DNA from: Aquificales bacterium
GTDB taxonomy: Bacteria > Aquificota > Aquificia > Aquificales > Aquificaceae
Direction of reading: 5' to 3'
Length of the DNA: 32,974 nt
NCBI GenBank assembly: GCA_015487615.1
Contig: WFPJ01000135.1
Location: forward strand, 1 to 32,974
The notes under the pieces were generated by a model that was not told the origin of the DNA, did not search any database, and saw only the letters and a program-made list of their open reading frames with translations. A program made the translations under genes and the position numbers. Positions 8,516 through 12,588 of this stretch are shown piece after piece; position 1 is the stretch's first letter, and the number at the start of each line of letters is the position of its first letter.

Positions 8516-8544
8516 ATTGTACACGATATCGCTATATGGCACAA
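8516..8544 (-). promoter_or_regulatory. Candidate sigma-70-type promoter for dapL
   Basis: On the minus strand: TTGTGC (8544-8539), 17-nt spacer, TACAAT (8521-8516), then SD and ATG at 8481. Confidence 0.6.
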
Positions 8545-8552
8545 AAATTGCA
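8537..8552 (+). promoter_or_regulatory. Candidate sigma-54 (RpoN) -24/-12 promoter for the PII-nitrate operon
   Basis: TGGCACAAAAATTGCA matches consensus TGGCACR-N4-TTGCW, with exactly 10 nt between the GG and GC dinucleotides. Confidence 0.75.
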
Positions 8553-8566
8553 AAAATTTAATCAGG

Positions 8567-9187
8567 ATGGTGGAAATACTATCTATAGTAAGGAAAGAAA
8601 TGGCAATCCATCTGAAGGATAAACTTTATGAGAAAGATATATATTTCCACTTCTGGCATGTAAAGGGAAGAGGAAAAGAAGGAGGACTTAAATATAGGGG
8701 ATTTTTAAGAGAAAAAACAGCAATGGTTTTCTTACCGAAGGTAGCCTTTTCCATATTCACTGATGAAGAAAAAAAAGAGGAAATTATAAACACAATTATT
8801 GAAACCGTTCATACAGGTAGCTACGGAGACGGGAAGATATTTGTTTTCAATAAGAAGGAGGGTGCAAATATGAAAATGATAAAGGCAATAATAAGACCAG
8901 AAAAGCTTTACGATCTTATATCCGCACTTGAGAAAGCAGGCTTTAAAGCATTAACTACTTGGGATGTAATAGGACGCGGTAAAGAGGGAGGAGTACAGGT
9001 AGGAGAAAGAAGCTACAACGAGCTTGTGAAGACAATGGTACTGATCGGGGTTGAAGACAAAGACAAAGACAAAGTTGTAGATGTAATTACAAAAGTGTGT
9101 AACACAGGTGTTTATGGAGACGGAAAGATTTTCGTGTGTGATATCTCAGAGGTATGGACCATAAGGACCAAGAGGAGGGAGCTCTGA
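8567..9187 (+). CDS. Tandem PII-domain nitrogen regulatory protein (NifI2-like + NifI1-like fusion)
   Basis: Two PII units: GRGKEGGLKYRG...FLPKV...TGSYGDGKIFV and MKMIKAIIRPEKLYDLISALEKAGF...GRGKEGGVQVG...NTGVYGDGKIFVCDISEVWTIRT. Confidence 0.88.
   Translation: MVEILSIVRKEMAIHLKDKLYEKDIYFHFWHVKGRGKEGGLKYRGFLREKTAMVFLPKVAFSIFTDEEKKEEIINTIIETVHTGSYGDGKIFVFNKKEGANMKMIKAIIRPEKLYDLISALEKAGFKALTTWDVIGRGKEGGVQVGERSYNELVKTMVLIGVEDKDKDKVVDVITKVCNTGVYGDGKIFVCDISEVWTIRTKRREL
8855..8872 (+). promoter_or_regulatory. Internal Shine-Dalgarno and start codon inside the tandem PII ORF
   Basis: AAGGAGG at 8855-8861, 8-nt spacer, in-frame ATG at 8870-8872 exactly at the start of the second PII domain (MKMIKAIIRPEK). 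Confidence 0.65.
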
Positions 9188-10608
9188 TGGTAAGTGAGAT
9201 AATATCCGCAGTCAAAAAGGGGAATCCAAAAGCACTCTTTGCCTCCTTCATTTACTTTGACCATTCCTTCAGTATATGGTTGCTACTAGGTGCATTAGGA
9301 CCTTTTATAGCGGAGTACTTTAATCTGTCAGGAGCCCAAAAGGGATTTATGGTTGCTATACCTGTTATATCCGCTGCTATCTTCAGGATAAATTTTGGCC
9401 ACATGTTTCAGTACATAAACGGGAAGTATATAGCCGTAGGGGGGATATTACTTTCCTCTGTACCTCACATATACATGTTGATTAAGGGATTCAACATAAC
9501 TTACGAAGATCTTCTTTGGATGGGTGTATTCTTGGGAGTAGCAGGTGCGAGCTTTGCCATAGCCCTTCCCATGGCGGGAAGTAATTATCCTAAAGAAGTT
9601 CAAGGACTCGTACTCGGGCTTGCTGCAGCAGGTAACATAGGTGCAGTGCTTGACGGTATTCTCTTTCCTCCCATAGCAAAGGCAATAGGATGGCAATATA
9701 CCTTTGTAATATCCATACTGCTTCTTCTCATAGCCTTAATTTTTGTAATCTTGTGGGCGGAAGACAAAACACCCAAGAACGAAGGAAACAAAATTTACCC
9801 CGTTTTAGCATTCTTTTCAACCTTAGGCTTTATGGTCTTACTCGCTATAGGATTCCAAAAGGAGTGGTTCGGAGTAGGAGGTAATATAGGCAAACTACTT
9901 ATTCCGATCCTTGGATCCATATTCGGTATCCTCTTTATGCCTCTTGCCTTCAAAAAAGTTTTCCTTGAAAGGGATACATGGGTGCTTATGCTTGCCTATT
10001 CAATAACCTTTGGCGGATTCGTTGGCATGTCATCTTATATAGCCATGCTTCTTAGAGATGTTTATACAATCTCAAAGGTTGAAGCTGGAATACTTATGTC
10101 CGTCTTCGCCTTTACCGGCGCCATGATAAGACCACTCGGGGGATACATAGCGGACAAGATAAGCGGTGCAACAGCCCTAATATTTTTCCTTGGGGGTATA
10201 TCACTAATAAACTTTATATTTTTCCTTATAACACCACCCCTCATTTTGGGAATATTACTTTTCCTTTTACTGTATACCTTCTACGGTCTAGGCAACGGTG
10301 CGGTGTTTCAGCTTGTACCTCACAGATGGCCTCATCAGACTGGTCTTATGACAGGAATTATAGGAGCTGCGGGAGGTATAGGCGGTTTTTATCTGCCCAC
10401 AGTAAATGGTATAGTCTTTGAGGCAACAGGTAGCTACAATCTTGCATTTGCCCTGTTCGGCGTCATAGGAATATTGTGCTTAGTATTTGTTAAGATGTTG
10501 CATGCAAAGTGGATGGAGTGGGCTTATGTCAGATACGATTATGAAAAGGATCAACTTGTAGGCATAGATCCAAAGAGTGGGAGGGTGTTGATGGAAATAG
10601 GAGATTAG
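9187..10608 (+). CDS. nasA: MFS nitrate/nitrite transporter (NarK/NasA family)
   Basis: Twelve-ish hydrophobic segments; FGHMFQYINGKYIAVGGILLSS, GAAGGIGGFYLP NNP-family signatures. The start at 9187 overlaps the PII stop (TGATG) and follows GAGGAGGGAGCTCTG; the ORF-track start is 9154. Confidence 0.88.
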   Translation: MVSEIISAVKKGNPKALFASFIYFDHSFSIWLLLGALGPFIAEYFNLSGAQKGFMVAIPVISAAIFRINFGHMFQYINGKYIAVGGILLSSVPHIYMLIKGFNITYEDLLWMGVFLGVAGASFAIALPMAGSNYPKEVQGLVLGLAAAGNIGAVLDGILFPPIAKAIGWQYTFVISILLLLIALIFVILWAEDKTPKNEGNKIYPVLAFFSTLGFMVLLAIGFQKEWFGVGGNIGKLLIPILGSIFGILFMPLAFKKVFLERDTWVLMLAYSITFGGFVGMSSYIAMLLRDVYTISKVEAGILMSVFAFTGAMIRPLGGYIADKISGATALIFFLGGISLINFIFFLITPPLILGILLFLLLYTFYGLGNGAVFQLVPHRWPHQTGLMTGIIGAAGGIGGFYLPTVNGIVFEATGSYNLAFALFGVIGILCLVFVKMLHAKWMEWAYVRYDYEKDQLVGIDPKSGRVLMEIGD

Positions 10609-10611
10609 GAT

Positions 10612-12588
10612 ATGGAATTTCAATGTCCCTACTGCGGAGTAGGTTGCGGATTGTATATAGATGAAAAGGGTAAAGTTAAAGGAAATCCTGAACACCCAGC
10701 AAATAGAGGCGATATTTGTAAAAAGCCTCTCTATCTTCCCAAGATATATGACAAGGATAGAATACTTAAACCGTATATAAGACAAGGAAAAGAATTGTAT
10801 GAAAGTAATTGGGAAGAAGTTTATGAAATTATCATAAATAAGCTAATTAGTTTATCACCTGATGAAATGTACTTCTATATCTCCGGTCAACTTATGACCG
10901 AAGAATCTTACATCATTAATAAATTTGTTAAGGGATTTTTAAAAACGAACAACATAGACTCAAACTCAAGACTATGCATGGCTTCAGCGGTTACCGCCTA
11001 TAAACTTGCCTTCGGATCAGACGGTGTACCCTGCTGTTATGAAGATATAGACGATGCGGACACTTTTATATTTATAGGTTCAAATGCAGCAATTTCTCAT
11101 CCTGTTCTATTCAAAAGGGTTTTAAACAGAAGAAGAAAGGAAGAAAAAGCCCTCATAGTTACAATAGATCCTTATGAAACGGAAACAGCGAGAAAAAGCG
11201 ATATATACATACAAATAAGAGCTGGGACTGATACAGCCCTTTTGAACTCAGTGCTATATATACTTTACGAAAAAGGTTGGATTGACTACGAATTCGTATT
11301 TAAATACACGGAAGGCTTTGAAGAAGCCATAGAAGAAGCAAAGAAATTTCCACCTGATGTTGCAAGTGAAATATGTGATATTGAAGTCTCTGATATATAT
11401 CTGCTTGCAAATATCTTTCGTAAAAGCAGAAAACTTATTTCCTTCTGGTGTCAAGGTCTTAATCAATCGGTAAATGCTGTTATGAAGAACTTAGCTCTCA
11501 TAAATCTGCACTTGGCAACAGGAAGATTGAACGGAAAGGGATGCCCCTTTTCACTTACTGGACAGCCCAATGCAATGGGAGGCAGGGAAGTAGGCTATCT
11601 TTCCAACGGACTTCCTGGATATAGGGATGTAAGAAATGAAGAAGATAGAAAGTTTATAGAAAACTTCTGGGGAGTAAGCGGTATAAAAGAAAAACCTGGA
11701 CCAACAATCACGGAAGCAATTGATCTTATACTAGAAGGTAAGATAAAGTTCCTTTGGGTCGTATGTACAAATCCCGCTGTATCTTTGCCCAATTTGAACA
11801 AGGTACATAGGGCATTAGATAGAGTATTTCTTGTTGTTCAAGACGCTTATTGGAATGATACAACCGAGTTTGCGGATATTATACTTCCCGCTAGTACCTT
11901 AGGTGAAAAGGAAGGTACAATGACTGGATCGGATAGGACCTTAACTTTCTGCGGTAAATTCAGGAAAGCACCGGGTGTTGCAAAACCAGACTGGCTTATA
12001 TTCAAAGAGCTGGCTATTAAAATGGGATTCCTAGCTTTTGACTATGAATCGGTAGAGGATATATTCAATGAATTCAAAAAAACCACAAAGGGAAGGTTGT
12101 GTGATATATCTTCCTTGAATTATGAAAGTTTACCCGCAAGGTGGGGAAGAAGATGGTTATATGAAGATCTAAAATTCCCCACCGACTCCGGTAAGGCTAA
12201 ATTCCATCCTGTTACACTTCATATACCCAAGGAAAACGGAAGATTTATAATGATAACGGGAAGATTAAAAAATCAATGGCATACCATGACAAAAACGGGT
12301 AAGTCACAAGAACTTTTGAAAGGTGAGGTTCCTCCCTTTATAATAATGAATCCCGAAGATGCAAAAGAGCTCAATATACAAGAAGGTGATAAAGTGACCA
12401 TAGTATCGGACAGGGGAAATACGGAAAGGATAGTAAGATACGGAAATGTAAAAAGAGGACACATATTTGCCCCCTTCGGATATCCTGCAGAATTCGGCAA
12501 TCCCGTTAACGTACTTGTAAGCGACAGGGTTGACCCCTTGTCAAAAGAGCCTGATCTTAAATATACGGGAGTTGATATCATAAAATAG
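10612..12588 (+). CDS. narB: Assimilatory nitrate reductase catalytic subunit-like molybdopterin oxidoreductase (NarB/NasA type)
   Basis: CPYCGVGCGLYI...GDICKKP [4Fe-4S] motif; LCMASAVTAYKLAFGSDGVPCCYED; TGQPNAMGGREVGYLSNGLPGYR; directly downstream of the nitrate transporter. Confidence 0.85.
   Translation: MEFQCPYCGVGCGLYIDEKGKVKGNPEHPANRGDICKKPLYLPKIYDKDRILKPYIRQGKELYESNWEEVYEIIINKLISLSPDEMYFYISGQLMTEESYIINKFVKGFLKTNNIDSNSRLCMASAVTAYKLAFGSDGVPCCYEDIDDADTFIFIGSNAAISHPVLFKRVLNRRRKEEKALIVTIDPYETETARKSDIYIQIRAGTDTALLNSVLYILYEKGWIDYEFVFKYTEGFEEAIEEAKKFPPDVASEICDIEVSDIYLLANIFRKSRKLISFWCQGLNQSVNAVMKNLALINLHLATGRLNGKGCPFSLTGQPNAMGGREVGYLSNGLPGYRDVRNEEDRKFIENFWGVSGIKEKPGPTITEAIDLILEGKIKFLWVVCTNPAVSLPNLNKVHRALDRVFLVVQDAYWNDTTEFADIILPASTLGEKEGTMTGSDRTLTFCGKFRKAPGVAKPDWLIFKELAIKMGFLAFDYESVEDIFNEFKKTTKGRLCDISSLNYESLPARWGRRWLYEDLKFPTDSGKAKFHPVTLHIPKENGRFIMITGRLKNQWHTMTKTGKSQELLKGEVPPFIIMNPEDAKELNIQEGDKVTIVSDRGNTERIVRYGNVKRGHIFAPFGYPAEFGNPVNVLVSDRVDPLSKEPDLKYTGVDIIK

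Follow-up and report, generated by a model that had tools for sequence, protein, structure and literature searches.

One gene of the heat-loving Aquificaceae joins two PII-type sensor domains and retains, at the junction between them, a ribosome-binding site and start codon from which the second domain is very likely also produced on its own. The gene lies in the window, a 32,974-nucleotide stretch of DNA from an Aquificaceae genome, where one open reading frame of 206 codons runs through two P-II domains with no stop separating them (Table 1). An intact full-length fusion with no internal stop occurs in 20 of 64 Aquificaceae genomes, spread over four genera, and every one of these carries the internal signals. 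Selection on the internal start is well supported by this conservation, and the gene very probably yields its sensor in two forms, joined and single. The explanation as a whole, towards which we lean, is that of a fused NifI-type nitrate sensor with two products, an I2:I1:I1 ring and a target within its own operon. From the sequences we infer both products, their ratio, the composition of the ring, its ligand response and its target.

The two PII halves and their nitrate operon

An earlier note on this DNA had described two PII units in one frame without an intervening stop. Its coordinates match the sequence, and each half, scored independently, passes the curated Pfam P-II (PF00543) cut-off of 25 bits, with 41.4 bits for domain 1 and 89.9 bits for domain 2. 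The AF2 single-chain model of the fused protein (pLDDT 76.8, pTM 0.73) contains two PII folds with low-confidence T-loops; a structure search with this model returned single GlnK/PII chains only, among the matches listed.

Table 1. Features of the fused PII gene and its operon, in window coordinates
Feature	Position	Strand	Basis
Sigma54 (-24/-12) promoter, TGGCAC-N5-TTGCA	8537..8552	+	Exact consensus
Start 1 (ATG) of the fused protein; predicted ~4-nt leader, no usable SD	8567..8569	+	Gap and SD dG
Fused two-domain PII gene, 206 aa	8567..9187	+	Sequence, relatives, AF2 model
Domain 1, NifI2-type PII unit without C-terminal C-loop (RIRTG) segment	8567..8869	+	Pfam, tree, residue table
Internal SD, AAGGAGG, within the coding sequence	8855..8861	+	Sequence; kept in 20/20 fused genes
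Internal start, ATG (GTG in 4/20 relatives)	8870..8872	+	In frame, 8 nt past SD
Domain 2, NifI1-type PII unit, 105 aa, potentially a separate product	8870..9187	+	Pfam, PDB match, tree
NarK/NrtP-type MFS nitrate transporter	9187..10608	+	PF07690, 127.6 bits
NasA/NarB-type molybdopterin nitrate reductase	10612..12588	+	72% identical to orthologue L126:7583-9583

The two halves belong to different subfamilies. In a tree of 90 PII domains, with a short alignment and weak inner forks, domain 1 from fused and separate genes groups with NifI2 (support 99/87), domain 2 is nested inside NifI1 (99/95), and the GlnB/GlnK rows form a distinct starred clade. Domain 2 also finds its best PDB match in 9p1x_H (E 7e-25). 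A single-sequence PDB search with domain 1 ranked 9p1x_G about level with several archaeal GlnK chains, so its NifI2 type rests on the tree. Assignment of domain 1 to the NifI2 type and of domain 2 to the NifI1 type is well supported; domain 1 had earlier been read as NifI2/GlnB-like, of which the tree favours NifI2, and domain 2 as NifI1-like.

Domain 1 had also been said to lack the usual C-terminal RTG, which is true. At the C-loop arginines (RIRTG), domain 2 has TIRT as in NifI1, and domain 1 has none. The segment is likewise absent from the separate domain-1 genes of Aquificaceae relatives, so its loss predates the fusion, and the idea that fusion caused it was rejected. Elsewhere, the B-loop GDGK and Lys58 are invariant in both halves of all fused and separate Aquificaceae rows, and R9 is kept in both domains. 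At the position of Gln39, a ligand-binding residue of classical PII, every Aquificaceae nitrate-type pair examined has Glu in its two domains, and most members of the other groups have Gln. With Glu39 in both domains and no C-loop arginines in domain 1, ligand sensing may differ from that of classical PII. Both halves are under purifying selection as judged from codon substitutions, with dN = 0 at dS 0.08-0.59 for domain 2 (six within-genus pairs) and dN/dS ~0.04-0.21 for domain 1 (eight pairs of close relatives).

Gene order gives good support for placing the fused PII gene at the head of a nitrate operon. The start of NarK overlaps the PII stop (TGATG), and the PII coding sequence contains the NarK SD (AGGAGG, 9173-9178). 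The mechanical list of open reading frames puts the NarK start at 9154; the ATG at 9187 is the likelier start. In each of the 20 fused loci the gene immediately 3' of PII is a NarK homologue, usually with NasA (PF00384/PF01568) after it where the contig extends that far. The NasA orthologue L126:7583-9583 has PF00384, PF01568 and PF04879. In relatives with separate genes, the PII pair is followed by NarK or an NrtABD-type ABC transporter, plus NasA, and several of these loci also lie near genes for nirB-type nitrite reductase, siroheme methylase, cyanate lyase, globin or a formate/nitrite transporter. Some separate-gene relatives (L143-L145) have an extra nif-type pair. For the genome of the window, regulation of nitrogenase was rejected: the gene shares its operon with a nitrate transporter and a nitrate reductase, not with nif genes as NifI1/NifI2 would, and a search of the genome for nifH gave no convincing match, its hits to the NifH family being weak P-loop ones. 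NifI1/NifI2 bind NifDK and thereby block docking of NifH; this operon encodes no such nitrogenase target.

Related arrangements were also seen outside the Aquificaceae. In two Nitrospirota-group genomes, at L173:7844-8971 (-) and L174:8503-9633 (-), a molybdopterin oxidoreductase domain carries a NifI2-like PII domain at its C-terminus (PF00174 and PF00543 in the L173 protein, the one tested). A NifI1-like gene comes shortly after each of these fusions, and NarK-like and NirB-like genes lie close by. These fusions are an independent hint that NifI2-type domains may work with molybdoenzymes or nitrate loci. In the Omnitrophota-group draw, one genome, L169 (G493), combines two NifI-like pairs in a stretch of ~5 kb with a NarK-like gene close to them.

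The first and the internal start

Upstream of the gene lies a sigma54 promoter that the earlier note overlooked and that leaves start 1 SD-less and near-leaderless. Across the 1.55-Mb genome the consensus matched without mismatch at six sites and a reversed-pattern control at none, and the genome encodes rpoN and six strong bEBP matches. A sigma54 site with 9 or 10 of 10 bases lies 5' of 19 of the 20 fused genes, a score that was attained by 6 of 10,000 base-shuffled upstream regions. The window gene has a TTGC-to-ATG gap of 15 nt and an SD dG at start 1 of -1.9; gaps of 12-16 nt are found in 15/20 fused genes, the window included. By the positions of sigma54 promoters relative to the transcription start (-24/-12; PMC12316311), such gaps predict leaders of ~1-5 nt with no room for an SD, where the transcription start is taken from this rule and the leader lengths are predictions.

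Elsewhere in this genome, four further genes behind sigma54 promoters show a canonical SD and a gap of 22-35 nt, so that among them a start lacking an SD is peculiar to the PII gene. Start 1 also has a good SD in five of the 20 fused genes, so a low long/short ratio would not be universal; fused genes with a gap of 25-29 nt have an SD at start 1. A cyanate lyase gene (L126:5080-5529) precedes the fused PII gene of an A. aeolicus-like genome (L126), which has no sigma54 site there and a normal SD at start 1.

In 15/20 genomes, then, translation of the long product probably begins on an almost leaderless message, and that of the short product at a canonical SD. On predicted leaders and SD strength, the better initiation site in most fused genomes is that of the short product. 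The sigma54 promoter is the best available sign of unequal amounts, in which the free form may be favoured. Taken further, free domain 2 could be the main regulator and the long form a rare modifier or ring cap. The near-leaderless start 1 of those 15 genomes would fit, as would the missing C-loop of domain 1 and the lack of any amino-acid change in domain 2 across six within-genus pairs in which domain 1 varies. We nevertheless regard this as unlikely, because purifying selection on domain 1 is clear and R9, K58 and GDGK are retained in it, and because a quarter of the genomes (5/20) give start 1 a good SD.

The conservation of the internal start speaks for two products. The SD, the 8-nt spacing and the in-frame ATG at 8870 are all as first described, and relatives keep them: the junctions of 20/20 intact fused genes hold an in-frame ATG (16) or GTG (4) together with an SD of dG -10.9 to -15.1 kcal/mol. 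When the genes were recoded synonymously with amino acids fixed (500 trials), both signals, defined as an in-frame ATG/GTG with SD dG <= -10.9 kcal/mol, appeared in a mean of 7.9 genes (sd 2.1) and at most 15 of 20, against 20 observed. The second-best column of the gene for an SD plus start reaches 8/20. This recoding test leaves the relatedness of the genes in place. The SD also falls in two codon registers (AAG GAG GGT; GAG GAG GTn; GAA GGA GGC TCA; TCG GGA GGT) and the linker residues vary among fused genes, while GGAGG remains, changes that are hard to attribute to descent alone. Where the internal start encodes Val, the codon is GTG in 4/4 relatives, three of them closely related, and GTG makes up 23% of Val codons. 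Another candidate, the ATG at 8600 in domain 1, was dropped since the aligned sequences have it in this genus only.

The suggestion in the earlier note that domain 2 could be made alone has gained from this comparison: as the start is kept in every intact fused relative, free domain 2 is very likely produced. No second NifI1-type gene was found in any fused genome, which makes the internal start the only evident source of free domain 2.

Alternatively, the fused protein alone might matter, with three chains forming two linked rings of six domains and the SD surviving as an unused relic of a two-gene operon. By arithmetic, two rings do close from three fused chains. Separate-gene relatives carry an SD at the equivalent position between the genes, so the SD predates the fusion, as a relic would. 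An unused SD would be expected to decay, yet it is present in 20/20 fused genes whose proteins differ down to 52% identity, and it persists through register changes with ATG/GTG preserved exactly. We therefore consider this less probable still than a regulator made up mainly of free domain 2. It is very improbable that the SD instead serves as a ribosome pause between domains that aids folding, since a pause, for which an SD-like stretch at a domain boundary could act, needs no in-frame ATG/GTG at start spacing, and all 20 genes keep one.

Distribution and origin of the fusion

Relatives do not always have separate genes, a point on which the earlier note had sought a check. Besides the 20 intact fusions, nine of the 64 Aquificaceae genomes encode the same two domains as adjoining separate genes in identical order, closely spaced or overlapping, and none encodes domain 2 without domain 1. 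An additional fused copy, in G064, is interrupted by a contig end just past the SD and stands outside the 20. Although the nine closely spaced or overlapping pairs show how a lost stop might mimic a fusion, an assembly or sequencing error was rejected as next to impossible, given stop-free fusions in 20 genomes, one of them closed. The closed genome is the A. aeolicus-like L126, which we take to be Aquifex aeolicus VF5.

Outside the Aquificaceae, a draw of 246 Nitrospirota-group and 237 Omnitrophota-group genomes yielded no PII-PII fusion; matches in long open frames there proved on reading to be upstream read-through or other fusions. Separate NifI-like pairs are present in Omnitrophota (L037) and Nitrospirota (L039), suggesting that the fusion is likely the derived state.

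Ring composition and the wider PII family

We propose that the fused gene encodes a form of the NifI1/NifI2 sensor pair that serves nitrate assimilation. Genes ordered I2-then-I1 would have fused in one Aquificaceae branch, and selection would have kept the second gene's ribosome-binding site inside the fused gene. The sigma54 promoter would drive this gene with a start 1 that is predicted near-leaderless and SD-less in the window and most relatives. The long I2-I1 product (~23 kDa) and free I1 (~12 kDa) would then assemble into three-domain PII rings. A PII ring has three subunits and binds ATP/ADP and 2-oxoglutarate, and the simplest closed one here would combine a fused chain with a free I1 (I2:I1:I1). 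If it acts as NifI1,2 does on nitrogenase and PII on nitrate transport, a form of control known in cyanobacteria, such a ring may bind the co-encoded transporter and/or nitrate reductase and switch this target off at low 2-oxoglutarate. The target is suggested by the gene neighbours.

The proposed ratio has a parallel in M. maripaludis. The chain list of PDB 9p1x, the source of these counts, gives 6 NifK, 6 NifI2-like and 12 NifI1-like chains, the last twice as many as the second; on the assumption of equal halves, each half of the nitrogenase would have NifI2 and NifI1 at 1:2. A fused chain, being two subunits, and one free domain 2 would give the same 1:2 ratio, and by this analogy supplying it may be why the internal start was kept. 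More tentatively, one gene may encode a PII heterotrimer of fixed composition, in which the fused chain provides the NifI2-type and one NifI1-type subunit, the internal start provides the third, and the I2:I1:I1 ring controls nitrate uptake or reduction.

Comparison with known systems places the fusion close to NifI1/NifI2, both of which are required for nitrogenase switch-off in M. maripaludis (PMC9765008). The two subfamilies are the same by tree and are encoded side by side in both. However, the Aquificaceae pair is one gene in the order I2-I1, not I1-I2, stands in a nitrate operon rather than a nif operon, has Glu39 in place of Gln39 and an internal start within its frame, and its domain 1 lacks the C-loop and a long T-loop. 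Separate nitrate-locus pairs (Hydrogenobacter/Thermocrinis-type Aquificaceae, L037 and L039) share the I2-I1 order, the SD between genes and similar neighbours (NarK or NrtABD, NasA), but consist of two genes, and in the non-Aquificaceae pairs domain 1 retains the C-loop. Classical GlnB/GlnK and cyanobacterial PII share the fold, but are homotrimers of one chain, and GlnB/GlnK fall in the separate starred clade. In genes within genes such as Rpn and Cas10d/Cas11d, an in-frame internal start makes a C-terminal part able to join the long form (PMC10327210). The conserved in-frame SD and start codon that mark such genes are present in 20/20 fusions here. Unlike those short forms, the predicted short PII product would be recognisable as a whole sensor subunit, one that relatives encode in a gene of its own.

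The NifI pair and the gene-within-gene principle are already known; in the open papers searched, with most subscription journals and preprints outside the coverage, no description of a PII fusion in Aquificaceae was found. The fused frame itself is likely already annotated, presumably as glnBi, an annotation of a PII-like gene of A. aeolicus and a name that drew unrelated papers only in a literature search. A locus annotated as one protein would miss a product.

If correct, this explanation would point to a role of NifI pairs beyond nitrogen fixation, as a switch whose stoichiometry is fixed by the combination of a leaderless start with an internal SD. The fusion would amount to a natural experiment on PII stoichiometry, in which two of the three ring subunits are joined and a separate source of one is retained. 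With A. aeolicus, which we take to carry the fusion, the subunit ratio of a NifI-type ring would become testable in a cultured organism.
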